From NCBI GenBank assembly GCA_026397715.1, contig JAPLUN010000641.1:1-37186 (forward strand): a stretch of 37,186 nt of DNA, written 5' to 3'. The notes beneath the pieces are model-generated. The model was not told where the DNA came from. It worked only from the letters and a program-made list of their open reading frames with translations, and searched no databases. Source of the DNA: Verrucomicrobiota bacterium. GTDB taxonomy: Bacteria; Verrucomicrobiota; Verrucomicrobiia; Verrucomicrobiales; Verrucomicrobiaceae. Made by a program: the position numbers and the translations under genes. Positions 4,871-30,120 of this stretch are shown piece after piece (the first letter of the stretch is position 1; each line of letters opens with the position of its first letter).

Positions 4871-6220
4871 ATGAACATCAACGTCGAACATCAGCCCAAC
4901 TGCCGAGCCGTCGCCCACGTCCGCGTTCCTTCCGACCAGGTCGGCAAAGAACGTGACGAGATCATCACCTACTTCGCCGGCATGGTTCGCATGCCCGGCT
5001 ATCGCCCCGGCAAAACGCCGAAGAGCATCGTCGCCAAGCGCTACGAAAACGAAGTGAAGGACGAACTCGAAAAGAAACTCATCAGCGAAGGCCTGCGCCA
5101 GGCCGTGAAGAGCGAAGGCCTCGAGCTCCTCAACGTCCTCGCCGTGAACGACAAGATGTATCACGACACGGACAAGAGCTTTAGCTTCACCATCGAGATG
5201 AGCCTCGCGCCGAAGTTTGAGCTGCCCGAGTACACCGGCATCCCGGTCAAGCTTCCGCGCATCGAAGTCACCGACGCTGATGTGGACCACGATCTCCTCC
5301 ACCTCCGCGAAAACCAGGCCACTTACGAAGACGTGGATCGTGTCGCCGCCGTGTGTGATGTCGTCGTTCTCAGCGTCACCGGCAGCCTCGATGGTCAGCC
5401 CATCGCCGAAGCCATGCCAGATGCCCCTTCTCATCTCAAGGAGATGAATGAAAACTGGTTCCTCCTCGCCGACGAAGACGATTTCCTCCCCGGCTTCTAC
5501 GCAGGCCTCGTCGGCATCGCCAAAGATGACGAGCGCACGCTCAACATCACCCTGGCAGACGACTTCAACTTCGAAGCTCTGCGCGGCAAGACCATCGCCC
5601 TGGCCGTTAAATGCCACGGCGTGAAGAACAAGGCCGTGCCGGAACTCACCGAAGAGTTCATCAAAAAGATCGCCGGTGAGGAGATGAGCCTCGAAACCCT
5701 TCGCGATGAAGTGCGCGACGCCATCCGCCGCCGCCGCGAGCAGGCCCGTGATGCCGCGAAGTCCAATCAGGTCATCGCCCACCTCTTCGAAAAGGTGGAG
5801 TTCGAACTCCCTCAGGAAGTCGTGAACCGCGAAGCCCAGCGCCGCACCAACGAAATCGCCCAGCGCGCCATGCAGCAGGGCATCGGCGAAGAAGAGCTGA
5901 TCAAGCAGCAGGACGAGATCCTCAATAGCGCCACCAATCAGGCCCGCCAGAACGTCAAAGTCAGCTTCATCCTTGAGCAGATCGCCAAGAAGGAAGCCCT
6001 CGAAGTTCCCGGCCAGAAGATCGCCATGGCCCTCGCACAGATCGCCGAGCGTCAGAAGACCCCCGCCAAGAAGTTCATGGCCGAGGCTCAGAAAAACGGT
6101 CTCATCGACAATGTCCGCAGCGACCTCCTCCTGCAGGAAGCCATGGAGTTCCTCAAGTCCAAGGCCATCGTCGAAGAAACCGAGCCCGAAGCGGAACACT
6201 GCGACACGCACAGCAAGTAA
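4871..6220 (+). CDS. tig: Trigger factor, ribosome-associated chaperone / prolyl isomerase
   Basis: Folding chaperone of 449 residues (E. coli has 432) that binds near the ribosomal exit tunnel. With the start at 4871 (MNINVEHQPNC) the ribosome-docking signature GYRPGKTP falls at residues 43-50, exactly where E. coli has GFRKGKVP. This supports the start over upstream ATGs such as 4838. The N-terminal domain covers ~1-145, a FKBP-type isomerase domain ~150-245, and the helical C-terminal arm domain the rest. The gene has its own promoter-like sequence and a strong terminator, so it seems monocistronic. In many bacteria clpP and clpX follow tig; here a convergent pectate lyase does. Confidence 0.97.
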   Translation: MNINVEHQPNCRAVAHVRVPSDQVGKERDEIITYFAGMVRMPGYRPGKTPKSIVAKRYENEVKDELEKKLISEGLRQAVKSEGLELLNVLAVNDKMYHDTDKSFSFTIEMSLAPKFELPEYTGIPVKLPRIEVTDADVDHDLLHLRENQATYEDVDRVAAVCDVVVLSVTGSLDGQPIAEAMPDAPSHLKEMNENWFLLADEDDFLPGFYAGLVGIAKDDERTLNITLADDFNFEALRGKTIALAVKCHGVKNKAVPELTEEFIKKIAGEEMSLETLRDEVRDAIRRRREQARDAAKSNQVIAHLFEKVEFELPQEVVNREAQRRTNEIAQRAMQQGIGEEELIKQQDEILNSATNQARQNVKVSFILEQIAKKEALEVPGQKIAMALAQIAERQKTPAKKFMAEAQKNGLIDNVRSDLLLQEAMEFLKSKAIVEETEPEAEHCDTHSK

Positions 6221-6241
6221 GCAGCGGCGCACCCCTCAAAG

Positions 6242-6286
6242 AATGGTCAAGCGGTCGCCTGATGGCGGCCCTTGACCATTATTTTT
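6242..6286 (+). terminator. Rho-independent terminator of tig
   Basis: The outer arms AATGGTCAAG (6242-6251) and CTTGACCATT (6271-6280) pair perfectly. The inner GGTCGCC pairs with GGCGGCC around a TGAT loop, giving a 17-bp stem with one bulged C, followed by TTTTT at 6282-6286. It lies 22 bp after the tig stop. The pectate lyase stop (6279-6281) overlaps the right arm, so the hairpin may also serve the opposite strand, where the following T-run is weaker (CTTTG). Confidence 0.9.
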
Positions 6287-7520
6287 CTTTCTCCAGCCGC
6301 TTTCTCCAGCGGGCGGCCTCCTTCTCCAGCACTTCCTTCGGACGAGTGCTGAAGAAATCGTAGGCGACTTTGTTCTTCGCCGCCATTTCGTGAAAGGTGG
6401 GATAAACAATGCCGTCTTCGGCACCGGCGAAGATGGGCTTGCCGGTTTTAAGATCGTAAAAACGGGCCCAGATCACCTCGGTTCTCGTGGGATCGTCGAT
6501 GTAGTCGGTCTTGCCCTCGGCCGTTTTGGTTTTTCGCAGGCCGGTGAGCCGATGCCCCTCGAACCATTTCATCGCTGACTCGATCATGCTGACGACCTCG
6601 GGCGTCGTGGGACCTTGTCGCATGAGGAACTTCACCAAGTTGGCGGATTCGCCACCGCTCAGGGAAGGGGGCTCTTTAGCCCGGGCCTTTACGGGAGCCA
6701 GCGTGAGCGGATGATGTTGCGCACACCAGACGGTGGGGACGCCGTCGATTTTGACCTGCATTGCCGCAATGCAGGAAATGCCTTTGTCGAATGCGGCCTG
6801 CGCCCGCTGCTTCAGTGTTTCATCGGCGAAACTGAAAAGCTTTTCGCCCTTTGTTACAGCATGCAGCAGTTCGAGCACGTGCATCATGGCGTCGTCATTG
6901 AGCGTGATCGCCTCGTGATACCCTCGTTCCACCGGGTAGTTCTGCGGCCAGCCCCCATTGGGATACTGCGCGGCGAAAACGTAGTCGAGTCCCTTCATCA
7001 GCGCGGCATGTACTTCCTCGCGTTTCGTCGCGGTGAACACTCCGGCCAGGAACTTGAGCTGCTCGGTCGTCGTGCGGTTGTCGAAGGTGCCGCAGTAATG
7101 CCATGCGTCCCCCTTTTGGGCGGTCCAGTGCGTGCCGGGCTGGCGCGGCCCCTTCGTGTAATCCACCGCCTTCGACCAGCCGCCAGTGGGTGTTTGATAA
7201 CTGACGACAACTTCGGCGAGTTTCTGGTTCTCGGCGCTGCCAAACCACTCGGCAGGCGTGTCACTGTCGAACTCAAACTCCTTACGGTTGCCTGGTGCCG
7301 GTGCTGAATTTTTGAAACCTGCTTTCTGGCACTCCTCCGCGAGGATGCGGCGCTCGTTGGCAGCAGCAGCACGTGACTTCGCCATGTAGGTGTTCCACTC
7401 AGCACACTGTGATTCAGGGAGCTGCGCCAGCAGTTCGTCTGTGAGCATCGTGAAAGGTTTTTCCTCGGCCGAGATGGCAGTGGCCAGCACGAGATGAACG
7501 AACAGGAGGCGTGTGAGCAT
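6279..7520 (-). CDS. Secreted pectate lyase, polysaccharide lyase family 10
   Basis: Exported enzyme of 413 residues expected to cleave de-esterified polygalacturonate by beta-elimination. A signal peptide is visible (MLTRLLFVHLVLATAISAEE). PL10 features follow: PTGGWSKAVDYT, GTFDNRTTTEQLKFLAGVF, QYPNGGWPQNYP, the NDDAMMHVLELL helix, and TRTEVIWARFYDLKTG, whose arginine corresponds to the catalytic arginine of the family. The gene ends inside the tig terminator and is divergent from recQ, with 129 bp between starts. It looks like a single-gene unit. No carbohydrate-binding module is attached. Substrate preference within pectin is inferred from the family. Confidence 0.92.
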   Translation of the reverse strand: MLTRLLFVHLVLATAISAEEKPFTMLTDELLAQLPESQCAEWNTYMAKSRAAAANERRILAEECQKAGFKNSAPAPGNRKEFEFDSDTPAEWFGSAENQKLAEVVVSYQTPTGGWSKAVDYTKGPRQPGTHWTAQKGDAWHYCGTFDNRTTTEQLKFLAGVFTATKREEVHAALMKGLDYVFAAQYPNGGWPQNYPVERGYHEAITLNDDAMMHVLELLHAVTKGEKLFSFADETLKQRAQAAFDKGISCIAAMQVKIDGVPTVWCAQHHPLTLAPVKARAKEPPSLSGGESANLVKFLMRQGPTTPEVVSMIESAMKWFEGHRLTGLRKTKTAEGKTDYIDDPTRTEVIWARFYDLKTGKPIFAGAEDGIVYPTFHEMAAKNKVAYDFFSTRPKEVLEKEAARWRKRLEKEK

Positions 7521-7649
7521 GAGGATATTGGTTGTTCAAGACCCCGGGCAGTGCGAATCGTATTTTCTGATGTCCGCCATAGCGGCAGCCTATCCTTCCA
7601 AGCGGGTCGTCTTGACCGTTTGCCACATGATTGCTTTTTTGCGGATATA

Positions 7650-9596
<1,947 letters not shown>

Positions 9597-24475: not shown

Positions 24476-25948
24476 ATGAGCGTTTTCACCATCGAAGCTG
24501 GCCTCGCCATTCTCGGACTCGTTCTCCTCTTGCTGGAGGCCTTCAAGCCCGACATCTCCCGTCGCACTCTCGGCCTCACCGCCATCGCTGGCGCCACCCT
24601 CGCGCTCGTTTTGTTGACCATCGCGCCGCATGATTCTGCCAGCTTGCCCGGCTTCATCCAGCCTTGGCATCAACTCGACAGCCTCGCGCTCTTCTACAAG
24701 GGCTTTGCGCTCGTCATCACTATCCTCGTTCTCTGGCTCACGCTGGAATGCGCCCCCTACCTCACCCGCTTCACCGTAGATGGCAAACTGGCCGAAATGT
24801 TCAGCCTGCCCCTCATCGTCTGCGCCGGCATGATGTGGATGGCCTCCGCCCGTGACCTCGTCACCGTCTTCGTTGCGCTCGAACTCGTCACCGTCTCCTT
24901 CTATGTCCTTGTCGCCTTTGCACGCAAAAGCGCCTTCAGCCTTGAAGCCGGCGTCAAATACCTCATCCTCGGCGCTCTATCCACCGGCGTCCTCGTCTAT
25001 GGCATCGCCTGGATCTACGGTGCCACCGGCACAATGAGCTTCGACGGCATCGCCAAGGCGCTCGCCAATCCTGCTACCAGCAAAACCACCGCTCTCTTCG
25101 GTGCCGCCGTATTGCTCTGCGGTCTCGGCTTCAAAGTCGCCGCCGCTCCCTTCCACATGTGGGTTCCGGATGTCTATCAGGGCGCTCCGACTCCTGTGAC
25201 GGCCTTCCTGTCCGTCGGCTCCAAAGCCGCAGGCTTCGTCGTCCTCACTCGTGCGCTGGACGCCTTCATGGCCGAGGGCTCCATCATTGGCAGCGAAATC
25301 CAGGGCTTCCTGCTCGTCATCGGTTCGCTCACCGCCCTGCTCGGCAGTCTGCCCGCCATGTTCCAGACCAGCGTCAAGCGTCTGCTCGCCTACTCCAGCA
25401 TCTCGCATGCAGGTTATCTGCTCCTCGCACTCGCCTGCCGCGAAAGCGCCCGCTTCGATCTCTCCTCCGGTGGTGTCGTCGCCTTCTACCTCGCAACCTA
25501 CCTGCCCATGACCGTCCTCGGCTTCCTTGGTCTTGGCCTCATGCGCGCCAATGGCCTTGGCGAAGACATCAAGGACTTCGCCGGACTCGCCAAGCGCAAC
25601 CCGCTGCTCGCGTTGCTGATGACCATTTCCTTCGCCTCCCTCGCCGGTCTACCTCTCACTGCGGGCTTCCTCGGCAAGCTCTTCGTCTTCCTCGGCCTCG
25701 CCGATCACGGCTACTGGGGTGCCATGAGCTGCGCCGTCATCGCCGCCGCCGCTGGTTTCTACTACTACTTCAAGACCATCCTCGCGATGTACACCACCGA
25801 AGGCACCGACGTCCCCGCGCTGACCTTCTCAGGTCCCGCCAAAGCCGTCGCCGGCGCCCTGGCTCTCGTCATCCTGATCCTTGGTGTCTATCCCAAGCCC
25901 CTGCAAAGCGTCCTGACGTCAGATCGCCCTGCTGTCTTGGCGAAGTGA
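24476..25948 (+). CDS. nuoN: NADH-quinone oxidoreductase subunit N
   Basis: A 490-residue antiporter-like subunit, and the last gene of the operon. Diagnostic segments are FVALELVTVSFYVLVAF (helix-5 glutamate) and GFKVAAAPFHMWVPDVYQG (helix-7 lysine at the classical position), followed by FLSVGSKAAGF (helix-8 lysine). Fourteen helices fit the hydrophobicity. Codon use is like that of the preceding nuo genes. It is followed by an 86-bp gap with an inverted repeat and a promoter for the C39-like gene, so the operon seems to end here. Confidence 0.96.
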   Translation: MSVFTIEAGLAILGLVLLLLEAFKPDISRRTLGLTAIAGATLALVLLTIAPHDSASLPGFIQPWHQLDSLALFYKGFALVITILVLWLTLECAPYLTRFTVDGKLAEMFSLPLIVCAGMMWMASARDLVTVFVALELVTVSFYVLVAFARKSAFSLEAGVKYLILGALSTGVLVYGIAWIYGATGTMSFDGIAKALANPATSKTTALFGAAVLLCGLGFKVAAAPFHMWVPDVYQGAPTPVTAFLSVGSKAAGFVVLTRALDAFMAEGSIIGSEIQGFLLVIGSLTALLGSLPAMFQTSVKRLLAYSSISHAGYLLLALACRESARFDLSSGGVVAFYLATYLPMTVLGFLGLGLMRANGLGEDIKDFAGLAKRNPLLALLMTISFASLAGLPLTAGFLGKLFVFLGLADHGYWGAMSCAVIAAAAGFYYYFKTILAMYTTEGTDVPALTFSGPAKAVAGALALVILILGVYPKPLQSVLTSDRPAVLAK

Positions 25949-25980
25949 AGGGAAGAATGATTTGTAGGCAGTATGATGAC

Positions 25981-26016
25981 TTGGCCTATCAGTAAACATT
26001 GACAGGTTTAGGCCAA
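25981..26016. repeat. Inverted repeat TTGGCCTA...TAGGCCAA after nuoN
   Basis: TTGGCCTA (25981-25988) and TAGGCCAA (26009-26016) are perfect inverted copies separated by 20 bp. No T-run follows, so it is not a standard terminator. It overlaps the -35 element of the promoter before the C39-like gene and could be an operator. Confidence 0.4.
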
Positions 26017-26027
26017 ACCAGATACAT
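25999..26027 (+). promoter_or_regulatory. Promoter-like sequence at the C39-like gene, possibly leaderless
   Basis: A perfect -35 TTGACA (25999-26004) is followed by 17 bp and ATACAT (26022-26027), a modest -10. Transcription would start at about 26034, directly at the ATG (26035), which would make the mRNA leaderless. The -10 match is imperfect. Confidence 0.4.
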
Positions 26028-26034
26028 AAGCCGC

Positions 26035-27807
26035 ATGAAATTTCGGCTGCTCCTCGGTTCGGTTCTGCTTGCATGGCTGAGCTTTCATTCTGCCGCCAAT
26101 GCGCAGACCAAGTCTTCCGGTCCTTCCATCGATGATTTGATCGATTGGGCTGATCCTCTGGCGCTGACGCAGCAAAAGCTGATCAGCTTTTTAGATGCGA
26201 ACAGTAAAGACCGACGCAAGCCTTCATACACCATCGTGACAGATGAATCGGAGAGCCGAGTGACTTTTTATCCTGGGAATTCGGCCCAAGGTAGCATGTT
26301 GGAAGACACCATGTTTGGCGGCCTCTTTGAGGTTACGCACGTTGCCGTAAGCTGTTACCGCACGAGCTCTTCGTTCGACATAACACTCAACAATAGGAAC
26401 GTGACGAAGAAAAAGCTGGCCGCACTGGAGATCATCCTCGCGCAAAAAACCGGCGATTCCCATCCTAAAGAGGTCCCGGTTGGGCCGTCGGGTCAAACGG
26501 CGCTGTGGTGGGCAAACCCAAAATATAGGGTTGGTATTACTTCGAATGGTTATTCATTGAACTTTTCCATCTCAGGCGTGCCCCCCACGTCGCAGCCTTC
26601 TCAACGACAGGCTGCAAGCGAGCCCGACAAACAGCAGACATTGTCCGCCAACCTCGACGCCCTGCTGAACTTCGCTGGATTGTGGCAGTGGACACCAGCT
26701 GATCTCGAAAAGAACTACGTGCTGAAACTCCAAGATCAGGACAAGCAGCCGAAGCCGCCACAGTTTGAATGGGTGAGCAGTGCCAAGGACCGCGCACGTT
26801 TCTCCCGCCACATGTTTAGCAATGCAGAGACCAATCTGACCATGTTTGGCGGTTCCATCAAAGTGGAGGAAGCCATTCTCGAATTCGTGAACGGCAAAGC
26901 GGCCCGCGCCACGATCTCCTTCTACAATCGCGGCGACTCGGGCGATATCACCACGACAGAATTCGACCGCATTTTCAAACTGATCGGTCAAAACCTAGGT
27001 CAGGTGATGAAGGTCACTCCCAAGCGCCAGATAGTGTCCTCCAACGCCGCGCTGCCCGTTACCGGCTGGAACTGGACCTCGCCCAGCGGCGTCGCACTGC
27101 TCGAATACAACGACTACAACACACCCGGCAAAGTCACCAAGCCCGAGTTCCTGCGCCTGAAACTCGCCGCACCCAATCAGGCCGACTGGAGCATGGGCAA
27201 GATGGCCACTGGCGTCCAGCGCATGGAATTGCTCCAGCGTGTGAAAAAGACCGCCGAAGGTGATGTCTACATTTCTGGCGTACCCATGGTGGATCAGGGG
27301 CAGAAAGGCTACTGCGTCGCCGCCAGCTGCCAGCGTCTGTTTGAATACATGCGCATTCCTTGTGACCAGCACGAGATGGCCAAACTCGTCAGCATCGATG
27401 CTGGAAGCGGCGCTGATATCACCACCATGCAGAAGAGCCTCGCCAAGATCGACGGCGCTTTCAATGTGACTTTCAAACCGCTGATCAATCCCGAACAGTA
27501 TTACTCCAGAGGCAAGCGCCGTGTCTCAGAGAAGGAGTTCCTCTCCATCATCAAAGAATACACCGACAAAGGCGTGCCCTTGCTCTGGGGTTTGTTCCTG
27601 GGTCAGAAGCCCGAGGATCCACCGCTGCCAAACGGTGGCCAGGTCAGCGGCGGTCACATGCGCATGGTCATTGGTTACAACCTCGCTAAAAACCAAGTGC
27701 TCTTCACCGACTCCTGGGGTGCCGGCCATGAGCTCAAGCGCATGACATTGCTTGACGCTTACGACGTCACCCTCGGCCTCTACTCCATGGCTCCGCGCGG
27801 CTTGTGA
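26035..27807 (+). CDS. Secreted C39-like cysteine peptidase with duplicated N-terminal domain
   Basis: A 590-residue exported protein. The start at 26035 gives a signal peptide (MKFRLLLGSVLLAWLSFHSAANA). Residues ~400-590 resemble the papain-like peptidase C39 family, with Cys427 in GYCVAAS, His541 in GGHMRMVIGYN and Asp559 in FTDSWG. Two copies of an unrecognised ~160-residue domain come first (~32-187 and ~206-370). Each opens with a short helix rich in Leu and Trp, has a strand-turn MFGG (93-96 and 270-273, at the same offset) and ends with beta-strands. The repeat is diverged but collinear. Processing of another exported protein is possible; no substrate or ABC transporter is adjacent. 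It abuts the convergent DUF5069 gene with no gap. Confidence 0.82.
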   Translation: MKFRLLLGSVLLAWLSFHSAANAQTKSSGPSIDDLIDWADPLALTQQKLISFLDANSKDRRKPSYTIVTDESESRVTFYPGNSAQGSMLEDTMFGGLFEVTHVAVSCYRTSSSFDITLNNRNVTKKKLAALEIILAQKTGDSHPKEVPVGPSGQTALWWANPKYRVGITSNGYSLNFSISGVPPTSQPSQRQAASEPDKQQTLSANLDALLNFAGLWQWTPADLEKNYVLKLQDQDKQPKPPQFEWVSSAKDRARFSRHMFSNAETNLTMFGGSIKVEEAILEFVNGKAARATISFYNRGDSGDITTTEFDRIFKLIGQNLGQVMKVTPKRQIVSSNAALPVTGWNWTSPSGVALLEYNDYNTPGKVTKPEFLRLKLAAPNQADWSMGKMATGVQRMELLQRVKKTAEGDVYISGVPMVDQGQKGYCVAASCQRLFEYMRIPCDQHEMAKLVSIDAGSGADITTMQKSLAKIDGAFNVTFKPLINPEQYYSRGKRRVSEKEFLSIIKEYTDKGVPLLWGLFLGQKPEDPPLPNGGQVSGGHMRMVIGYNLAKNQVLFTDSWGAGHELKRMTLLDAYDVTLGLYSMAPRGL

Positions 27808-29060: not shown

Positions 29061-30120
29061 ATGCGCACCACTGCTGTTTGTCTCACTCTCCTGCTCACTC
29101 ACATGCAAGCCGACGAACCCAATGCCGCCGCCGAAGCCTGGCTCGCGAAGACCAAGATCGCTCCGCCCATGCAAGTGCCAGCCTCCCTCGACGCATGGCA
29201 GAATCAGCGAGCACAAATCCGCGCGAAGTTAAACGACCTCCTCGGCGACCTCCCACCGCGTCCACCCACCTCCGCATTCCAAGTGCTCACCCGCGAGGAC
29301 AAAGGCAGCTACACTCTGGAAACCCTCCAATTCGACAATGGCGCAGGCGAAATCGTGAAAGGCTATGTCTTTGTACCGAAACACGCGACAGCACAAACCA
29401 AGGCCCCCGCCATCCTCTACTGCCACTGGCACGGCGGCCAATATGACATCGGCAAACAGGAGCTCCTACAAACGAATGCGACACCCGTCGCCGCAGGCCC
29501 CGCGCTGGCCGCTGCCGGTTACATCGTCCTTGGCATCGACGCACCCTGCTTTGGCGAACGCAACGGCCAGGGCCCCGATGGCCCGCAGCAGAAAGGCGGC
29601 AACGGCGAGATGACCGCCTCTAAATTCAATCTCTGGGCCGGCCGCACGCTGTGGGGAATGATGCTGCGCGATGATCTCACCGCACTCGATTACCTTTGCT
29701 CACGCTCGGAAGTAGACGTGCAGCGCATCGGCGTCACCGGCATCAGCATGGGCTCCACCCGCAGCTGGTGGATCATGGCGCTCGATGACCGCCCGCGCGC
29801 CGCCGTGTGCGTGGGCTGGCATTTATTACTTCGTCCCCGGCATGCTCAAACACTTCGACACCGAAGCCGTCATCGCTCTCGGCGCCCCGCGCCCCATGCT
29901 CTTCATGACCGGAGATCAAGATAGCGGCTCACCCACCGACGGCGTACGCCACATCGGCAAGATCGTGAGCCAGGTGTACGCACTTCATGGCCAGGATGCG
30001 ACATCACATTTCGACAACGAGATCTACCCCGGCGTCGGCCACGTCTATCTGCCCGAGATGTGGGACAAGACGGTGCAATGGATGGACCGCTGGGTGAAGA
30101 ACGGAAATCCAGTCAAGTAG
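29061..30120 (+). pseudogene. Alpha/beta hydrolase (acetyl-xylan-esterase / dienelactone-hydrolase type), frame-disrupted
   Basis: The gene begins with a signal peptide (MRTTAVCLTLLLTHMQA) and runs in one frame through APAILYCHWHGGQYD, the oxyanion region and the nucleophile elbow GISMGS to RAAVCVG. The remaining protein (GIYYFVPGMLKHFDTE, the acid loop FMTGDQDSGSP, and histidine in YPGVGHVYLP) continues in another frame to the TAG at 30118-30120. The switch lies at about 29811-29822. From memory, intact relatives have about 20 more residues (LTRYQ...HG) between AVCVG and GIYYFVP, so an out-of-frame deletion is more likely than one lost base. All three catalytic residues survive on opposite sides of the lesion. 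A sequencing or assembly error is the alternative. Confidence 0.8.

Follow-up and report, generated by a model that had tools for sequence, protein, structure and literature searches.

C39-like peptidases of the family Peptidase_C39_2 (PF13529), the stand-alone 3erv among them, and the C39 domains of ABC exporters such as PCAT1 and ComA are the closest described relatives of the catalytic domain considered here. Exported papain-fold proteases with an N-terminal non-catalytic domain are represented by SpeB and staphopain; PMC2873492 describes the genes for both as adjoining those of their specific inhibitors, among which Spi is an analogue of the propeptide. Polymorphic toxin systems, as described in sections of PMC3482391, include a papain-like toxin domain, Tox-PL-C39, and combine one constant part with another that is exchanged by recombination. 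The protein analysed here is encoded in the window, by which we mean the whole stretch of 37,186 nucleotides under analysis (contig JAPLUN010000641.1, from a bacterium of the Verrucomicrobiaceae). With Peptidase_C39_2, including 3erv, it has in common a papain-like fold, the order Q, C, H and D and a match to the family profile; it differs in adding an N-terminal module with an N-x-G-D loop, which lies outside PF13529. Nothing on this architecture was found by title or abstract start in a literature search whose coverage lay mostly outside subscription journals.

The gene follows nuoN and is itself followed by a convergent DUF5069 gene, and an ORF check confirms the frame (26035-27807, +) and its product of 590 residues (Table 1); an in-frame TTG at 25999, upstream, is also a possible start. 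A paralogue in the same genome (L002, 472 residues) consists of one module and a C39 domain, preceded by a stretch that weakly resembles SHD1 (13.1 bits; cut-off 23.7). Elsewhere in the window, an Abhydrolase/AXE1-like gene at 29061-30120 is divided between two overlapping frames (29061-29924 and 29785-30120); it is a single frame of 365 residues in L003 and appears disrupted in the window.

Table 1. Features of the peptidase gene and its surroundings (positions in the window)
Feature	Position	Strand	Remarks
C39-like cysteine peptidase, 590 aa	26035..27807	+	signal sequence, distal module, proximal module, linker, peptidase domain
Signal sequence, residues 1-24	26035..26106	+	hydrophobic run ending ANAQ; by inspection
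Distal module (copy 1), residues 27-200	26113..26634	+	includes terminal linker; fast-evolving; without N-x-G-D
MFGG turn of copy 1, residues 93-96	26311..26322	+	
Proximal module (copy 2), residues 201-384	26635..27186	+	conserved; type found ahead of sampled C39 domains
MFGG turn of copy 2, residues 270-273	26842..26853	+	
N-x-G-D loop, N298-R299-G300-D301	26926..26937	+	mark of proximal modules
C39-like peptidase domain, residues 400-590	27232..27804	+	Q421, C427, H541, D559
Block differing in L006, approximate ends	25880..26680	.	nuoN end, intergenic region, start, signal sequence, distal module

PF13529 is the only Pfam or NCBIfam family above its cut-off in the protein, scoring 25.5 bits for the whole protein and 28.2 bits for the domain alone against a cut-off of 24. 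The residues named in the original prediction, Cys427, His541 and Asp559, were found at those positions, and Q421 is a further conserved residue beside them; Q421, H541 and D559 are kept in all 69 distinct C39 domains of the loci compared and C427 in 68 of the 69. The predicted fold is papain-like, with Q, C, H and D in order and fold matches of up to Z = 14.2. In this search, which used a model of middling confidence in the peptidase region and in which Z differences below 1 were counted as ties, the domain matched the PCAT1 peptidase 6mpz (Z 14.2, rmsd 3.0, 141 aligned), the phytochelatin synthase Alr0975 (2bu3; Z 14.2, rmsd 3.2, 160 aligned), C39-like 3erv (Z 14.0, rmsd 4.5, 161 aligned), ComA 3k8u (Z 13.9, rmsd 2.7, 136 aligned), the pseudomurein endoisopeptidase PeiR (Z 13.4, rmsd 2.6, 138 aligned), prostaphopain B 1x9y (Z 12.0, rmsd 3.8, 154 aligned) and streptopain 6uqd (Z 11.4, rmsd 3.1, 152 aligned). 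The family match, the PDB fold matches and the N-terminal signal sequence recognised by inspection bear out the earlier assignment as a secreted C39-like peptidase: the 590-residue protein is apparently an exported papain-fold (C39-like) cysteine peptidase. The fold scores of Alr0975 and PeiR are about as high as those of true C39 peptidases, and the PF13529 score is barely above its cut-off, as might also be expected of a transferase or amidase of the same fold that acts on glutathione-like or cell-wall peptides, the modules holding a small or polymeric ligand. We consider such an enzyme highly improbable, as the C39 peptidases PCAT1 and ComA tie with Alr0975 and PeiR, and the eight neighbouring genes scanned give no indication of thiol or wall metabolism.

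No ABC transporter was found in the open reading frame or among the eight neighbouring genes scanned, in agreement with the original view that none stands beside the gene. Since this link was looked for and not found, the protein was filed apart from the ABC-linked C39 peptidases. The domains of PCAT1 and ComA are among its best fold scores (Z up to 14.2), but the window protein differs from them in having neither a fused nor, among the eight genes, a neighbouring transporter, and in carrying what is by inspection its own signal sequence. Judged by its sequence, it is a C39-like peptidase of new architecture and not of the ABC-linked C39 type.

Ahead of the peptidase domain, two segments of about 160 residues had been described as repeats. 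BLASTP comparison of copy 1 with copy 2 of the window protein was not significant (E = 1.2), so the match by eye was no proof. Profiles of the modules were built from 18 relatives found by one scan of genome contigs, and a 13-row profile, from 12 distal modules and a single stand-alone one, was compared with that of 17 proximal modules. The distal and proximal profiles match over 145 columns with E = 1.3e-6 and a probability of 90.6, colinearly and with MFGG on MFGG. The real score was 45.4 and the best column-shuffled control 23.7, none of 200 controls being as high, and the peptidase alignment, used as a negative control, gave E = 0.43. Single distal modules gave E values of 0.001-0.37 against the proximal profile, and the case for homology therefore rests on the family profile. 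With the profiles in register the proposed repeat stands: on this comparison, the two segments, of about 165 residues, are copies of one domain. The MFGG turns, said to lie 61-63 residues into each copy, do align; they start at residues 93 and 270, with measured offsets of 60 and 62 from the conserved Asp residues D33 and D208. At the turns (window 26308-26321 and 26839-26852) the two copies share an identical stretch of 14 bases, although they are otherwise far diverged.

The full-length structural model was poor overall (pLDDT 61.9, pTM 0.35), copy 1 forming a block of pLDDT 71-88 over residues 31-180 and copy 2 being of low confidence. Modelled alone, copy 2 reached a pLDDT of 80.6 and a pTM of 0.79, although this model is not independent because its alignment contained copy-1 rows. 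In the full-length model, copy 1 has helices at 32-35, 46-55 and 125-139, with strands at 65-69, 73-78, 98-108 and 112-119 and, after the last helix, at 145-149, 154-160, 165-170 and 174-180. In its own model, copy 2 (module numbering + 200) has helices at 208-211, 213-216, 221-227 and 307-320 and strands at 203-206, 244-246, 253-257, 266-270, 279-285, 288-297, 342-349, 352-361 and 369-378, the helix at 307-320 falling between the strands 288-297 and 342-349. The elements predicted for the two copies thus follow nearly the same order, as the original prediction of two matching segments would have it, but three strands are unpaired: 145-149 of copy 1 and 203-206 and 266-270 of copy 2 have no listed counterpart in the other copy.

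The module had been called an unrecognised domain, and Pfam and NCBIfam uphold this: no named family scores above its cut-off over the module in the proteins scanned, the nearest being DUF6301 at 16.9 bits (cut-off 27.2) in one distant member (L088). Searching the PDB by sequence returned two chance-level matches alone (E = 1.6-1.7), with no propeptide match for the module. The matches in the fold search with the whole model were all taken up by the peptidase. The best VIA match to the module (9j9w, Z 7.0, rmsd 3.6, 122 aligned) is within the stated background range of that tool. Several of the weak fold matches to the proximal module are EagT6, SciW, LpqN and PsbP, which we take to belong to one Mog1/PsbP/DUF1795-like grouping (Z 5.0-5.3 over about 100-111 residues, rmsd 3.8-6.5); these scores are, however, in the background range, and Foldseek gave no match to a known fold for the proximal module at E = 0.001 or better.

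A search for other proteins with the same unit, as the original prediction proposed, was carried out in the phylum of the organism itself, Verrucomicrobiota, where the named sources of relatives are mostly metagenome assemblies. At E = 0.001, the mixed module profile A4 matches 62 of 68 family genomes, 171 of 288 genomes drawn evenly from the order and 48 of 387 drawn evenly from the phylum; no match indicative of mobile carriage was found in plasmids, phages or viral contigs. Trees of the family contain many weak and long branches. The C39 profile matches at least 102 of 194 phylum genomes at E = 1e-5. From the C39-only matches listed, 20 proteins were hand-picked across Verrucomicrobiota, one per genome, and all 20 match a broad profile trained on 58 regions directly ahead of C39 domains in other proteins (domain E from about 1e-28 to 8.5e-5). 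Because the broad profile models a position, the sampled set was re-checked independently of it. Taken as a set, the 20 upstream regions match the proximal profile with E = 3.1e-17 over 146 columns (score 107.9; best of 50 shuffles 17.8) and A4 with E = 1.9e-10; the match to the distal profile is weak (E = 0.0016, probability 16) and the C39 profile, as a negative control, gave E = 0.1. Singly, six of the 20 match A4 at E = 0.001 and 14 at E = 0.1. Since the set fits the proximal profile but the distal profile only weakly, the conserved unit is, on these profile matches, a proximal-type module with C39 that extends across the phylum, the distal type being an addition.

Two copies were dropped as the defining architecture, and with them that part of the original prediction, as orthologues carry one, two or four modules (none, one or three of them distal) and the two copies behave differently. 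Among 49 distinct C39 proteins of the loci scanned, one module was detected in 29, two in 18 and four in one; the single protein with none comes from a frame truncated where L049 ends, and its gene is whole, with modules, in L063. In 23 of the 29 one-module proteins fewer than 90 residues lie ahead of the module, L019 being truncated at its contig end; some of the remaining ones leave space for an undetected divergent module, as divergent distal modules can be missed. That 29 of the 49 have one detected module indicates that the distal module is dispensable.

The two kinds of module are also told apart by a loop. N-x-G-D is found in all 17 proximal modules of close orthologues and in none of the 12 distal modules. 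In a wider set, [N/S]-x-G-D is present in 84 of 87 proximal regions (81 with N, three with S), the exceptions being L093, which has T-R-G-D, L121, in which the motif lies outside the cut, and L060, in which it is lost. L060 is the sole proximal module without any x-G-D and its peptidase is the sole domain without the catalytic Cys; this joint loss of loop and Cys is one case. Of the 31 distal, stand-alone and Lon-linked modules with matches longer than 120 residues, three have the pattern, and none of these three is a distal module with the motif in place: L009 and L030 are the same protein twice, with the motif elsewhere in the module, and L050 is a truncated proximal module.

The distal module is also the part that changes. 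Across the 36 pairs of nine two-module proteins, the window protein included, mean identity is 41.3% for the distal module (20.8-97.1), 84.1% for the proximal module and 89.3% for the linker and peptidase, and distal identity is the lower in 34 pairs. Between the window and L003 the relation is reversed, with differing sites at 3.0% in the distal module, 8.2% in nuoN, 9.7% in the proximal module and 14.3% in the peptidase (Fisher p = 1e-10 for distal versus proximal plus peptidase and 2e-5 versus nuoN), and the corresponding dS values are 0.09 (distal), 0.32 (proximal) and 0.80 (peptidase). L004 and L005 form a similar pair (dS 0.05, 0.58 and 0.57, respectively). Compared with L006 in 60-base windows, the DNA identity of the window is 32-63% from 25880 to about 26660; on either side it reaches 88-98% (end of nuoN) and 87-92% (from about 26720), so that the signal sequence and the distal module diverge together, as one block. 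A search of 68 family genomes for a source of the distal module in L006 gave one match at E = 1e-5, in G042, on a contig as long as that of L006 (99297 bases) and hence the same place as L006 itself; the distal type of the window matches eight of the 68, its own genome included. On these comparisons the distal module is variable and mosaic, and it has seemingly been exchanged between related bacteria, although unequal loss within tandem arrays, and not import, could be the origin of the mosaic. For seven of the nine two-module proteins (L006 and L007 left out), distal dN/dS was about 0.1-0.6 in the 14 of 21 pairs with estimable dS, seven distal pairs being saturated, and proximal dN/dS about 0.09-0.16. 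Positive selection on the distal module was thus not detected, dN/dS being below 1 in each of those 14 pairs, and its rapid change may reflect relaxed constraint.

The peptidase gene is flanked by nuoN and DUF5069 in 10 of the 18 scan loci (L003-L007, L009, L011, L012, L015 and L020), with module remnants between them in L003 and L011. L008 has a further gene in the nuoN-DUF5069 interval; in L014 nuoN is seen with other genes between, in L010 and L019 DUF5069 alone is seen, and in L013 and L016-L018 neither is present in the DNA examined. Genes that by inspection are restriction-modification or DNA methyltransferase-like separate nuoN from the one-module peptidase gene in L008 (2929-5796) and L014 (3264-5843), and the nuoN interval therefore takes in other genes too. 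The label of L010, Akkermansia muciniphila, may be wrong, as the peptidase gene in L010 and the genes around it group with Prosthecobacter-type loci. At L011:4829-5898, the peptidase gene is preceded by remnant modules and by a duplicate of 38 residues from the end of nuoN; as far as their sequence tells, these are the trace of a tandem duplication. Gene pairs occur in L063 and L064, in which none of the window's neighbours is present in the DNA examined, and also in L065. We infer duplication, deletion and recombination.

The module is also found on a second type of protease. Between nuoN and the C39 gene, L065 encodes two modules with a Lon-type domain (PF05362, Lon_C, E = 8e-16), and in L068, where the C39 gene of the genome is elsewhere, a gene adjoining nuoN likewise encodes two modules and Lon_C (E = 3e-14). 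In both proteins (L065:7107-9494 and L068:5038-7401 (-)) the N-terminus is signal-like, and Pfam gives no AAA match for either. Of the 68 family genomes, 22 have Lon-type domains; out of 36 matches listed, ten Lon-type proteins were read, and modules are present in two (genomes G059 and G024) and absent from the other eight (L102-L109, including L106 from the window's own genome), in which the N-terminus differs. Exported Lon-type (S16, PF05362) proteases of the same genus thus share modules with the C39 protein in two of the ten read, beside nuoN, but differ from it in their catalytic domain and, in those eight, in their N-terminus. Two candidate descriptions were dropped, the module as C39-specific in view of the fusions in L065 and L068, and the exported Lon family as a general module carrier in view of L102-L109. 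The four-module protein L009 shares 64% identity in its module 1 with module 1 of the Lon protein from L065 and 41% in its module 2 with module 2 of the one from L068, and its module 4 is 78-80% identical to proximal modules; in L009 a Lon-type front appears to have been fused to a C39 gene.

Such rearrangements raise the question of whether the proximal module alone matters, distal modules being drifting by-products of duplication and deletion with little function. The gene pairs in L063, L064 and L065, the remnants in L003 and L011 and the L009 fusion would all fit, as would the many one-module orthologues and the fast evolution of distal modules. Against it, dN/dS is below 1, the predicted fold is confident and the frames are open in the two-module proteins read; moreover, two pairs have a very low dS, which suggests that one intact module was substituted for another and speaks against decay. 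We regard drift of this kind as unlikely.

Module-only frames bear on a different explanation, namely that the modules are pro-domains, the proximal one gagging the peptidase until export, the distal ones being added pro-segments and neighbouring stand-alone modules acting as inhibitors in the style of Spi and SpeB. Frames of two modules without C39, ending at a module boundary, follow the protease gene in L060 (386 residues) and L061 (422 residues), where the window's neighbours are absent from the DNA examined. In L060, a peptidase copy with Ser at the position of the catalytic Cys (6828-8855 (-)) is followed at once by the two-module frame (5667-6824 (-)); the two are possibly a binding or inhibitory pair. 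These frames in two genomes, the proximal-type module directly N-terminal to the papain-fold domain in all 20 sampled proteins, and the presence of prostaphopain B and streptopain among the peptidase fold matches are what pro-domains would predict, and the inhibitor genes beside SpeB and staphopain, in the part of PMC2873492 that describes them, provide a precedent. The window protein resembles SpeB/Spi and staphopain/staphostatin as an exported papain-fold protease with an N-terminal non-catalytic domain and, in two genomes, module-only frames, but differs from them in the number of its modules, in having no PDB propeptide match by sequence for the module and in that the same module fronts a Lon-type serine protease. 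Furthermore, distal modules of close orthologues are without the conserved loop (0 of 12), and the stand-alone module of L003 may be decaying, its apparent signal sequence being in another frame. Pro-domains throughout are the chief rival to the reading preferred below but seem rather unlikely, although the two functions may both be true, with the proximal module as a built-in partner of the peptidase and the distal module serving recognition.

The reading we prefer, to which we give about an even chance, is that of a constant core, made up of proximal module and peptidase, with an exchangeable distal recognition module. The proximal module would be integral to the enzyme, its N-x-G-D loop probably contacting or ordering the peptidase domain. 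The distal module, next to the signal sequence, would recognise something outside the active site, for instance a substrate protein or a surface. It would change by duplication, loss and recombination while the core is unchanged, and with the core constant and the distal module changing, specificity could be re-pointed without touching catalysis. Since module number varies and the two copies behave differently, it is chiefly to the distal copy that the original suggestion of substrate or surface binding can plausibly be applied. Polymorphic toxins, as far as PMC3482391 covers them in the sections used here, offer a likeness in mirror image, for here it is the catalytic C-terminus that is constant and the N-terminal module that is variable. 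A wider proposal, in which recognition cassettes, with signal sequence and upstream DNA, are exchanged between lineages at one chromosomal locus and moved between the unrelated C39- and Lon-type proteases, re-aiming exported proteolysis at changing targets, is possible but tentative.

The module represents an as yet unnamed domain family, which occurs in much of one phylum and is now split into an enzyme-bound and a variable class, with N-x-G-D as the sequence mark. The comparisons suggest that the targeting end of these proteases evolves separately from the cutting end. If the distal class is a recognition module, the family would constitute a natural series of modular proteases in which the targeting part has been changed repeatedly with the cutting part held constant and, if this is true, the choice of targets by exported bacterial proteases would become testable by means of module swaps.
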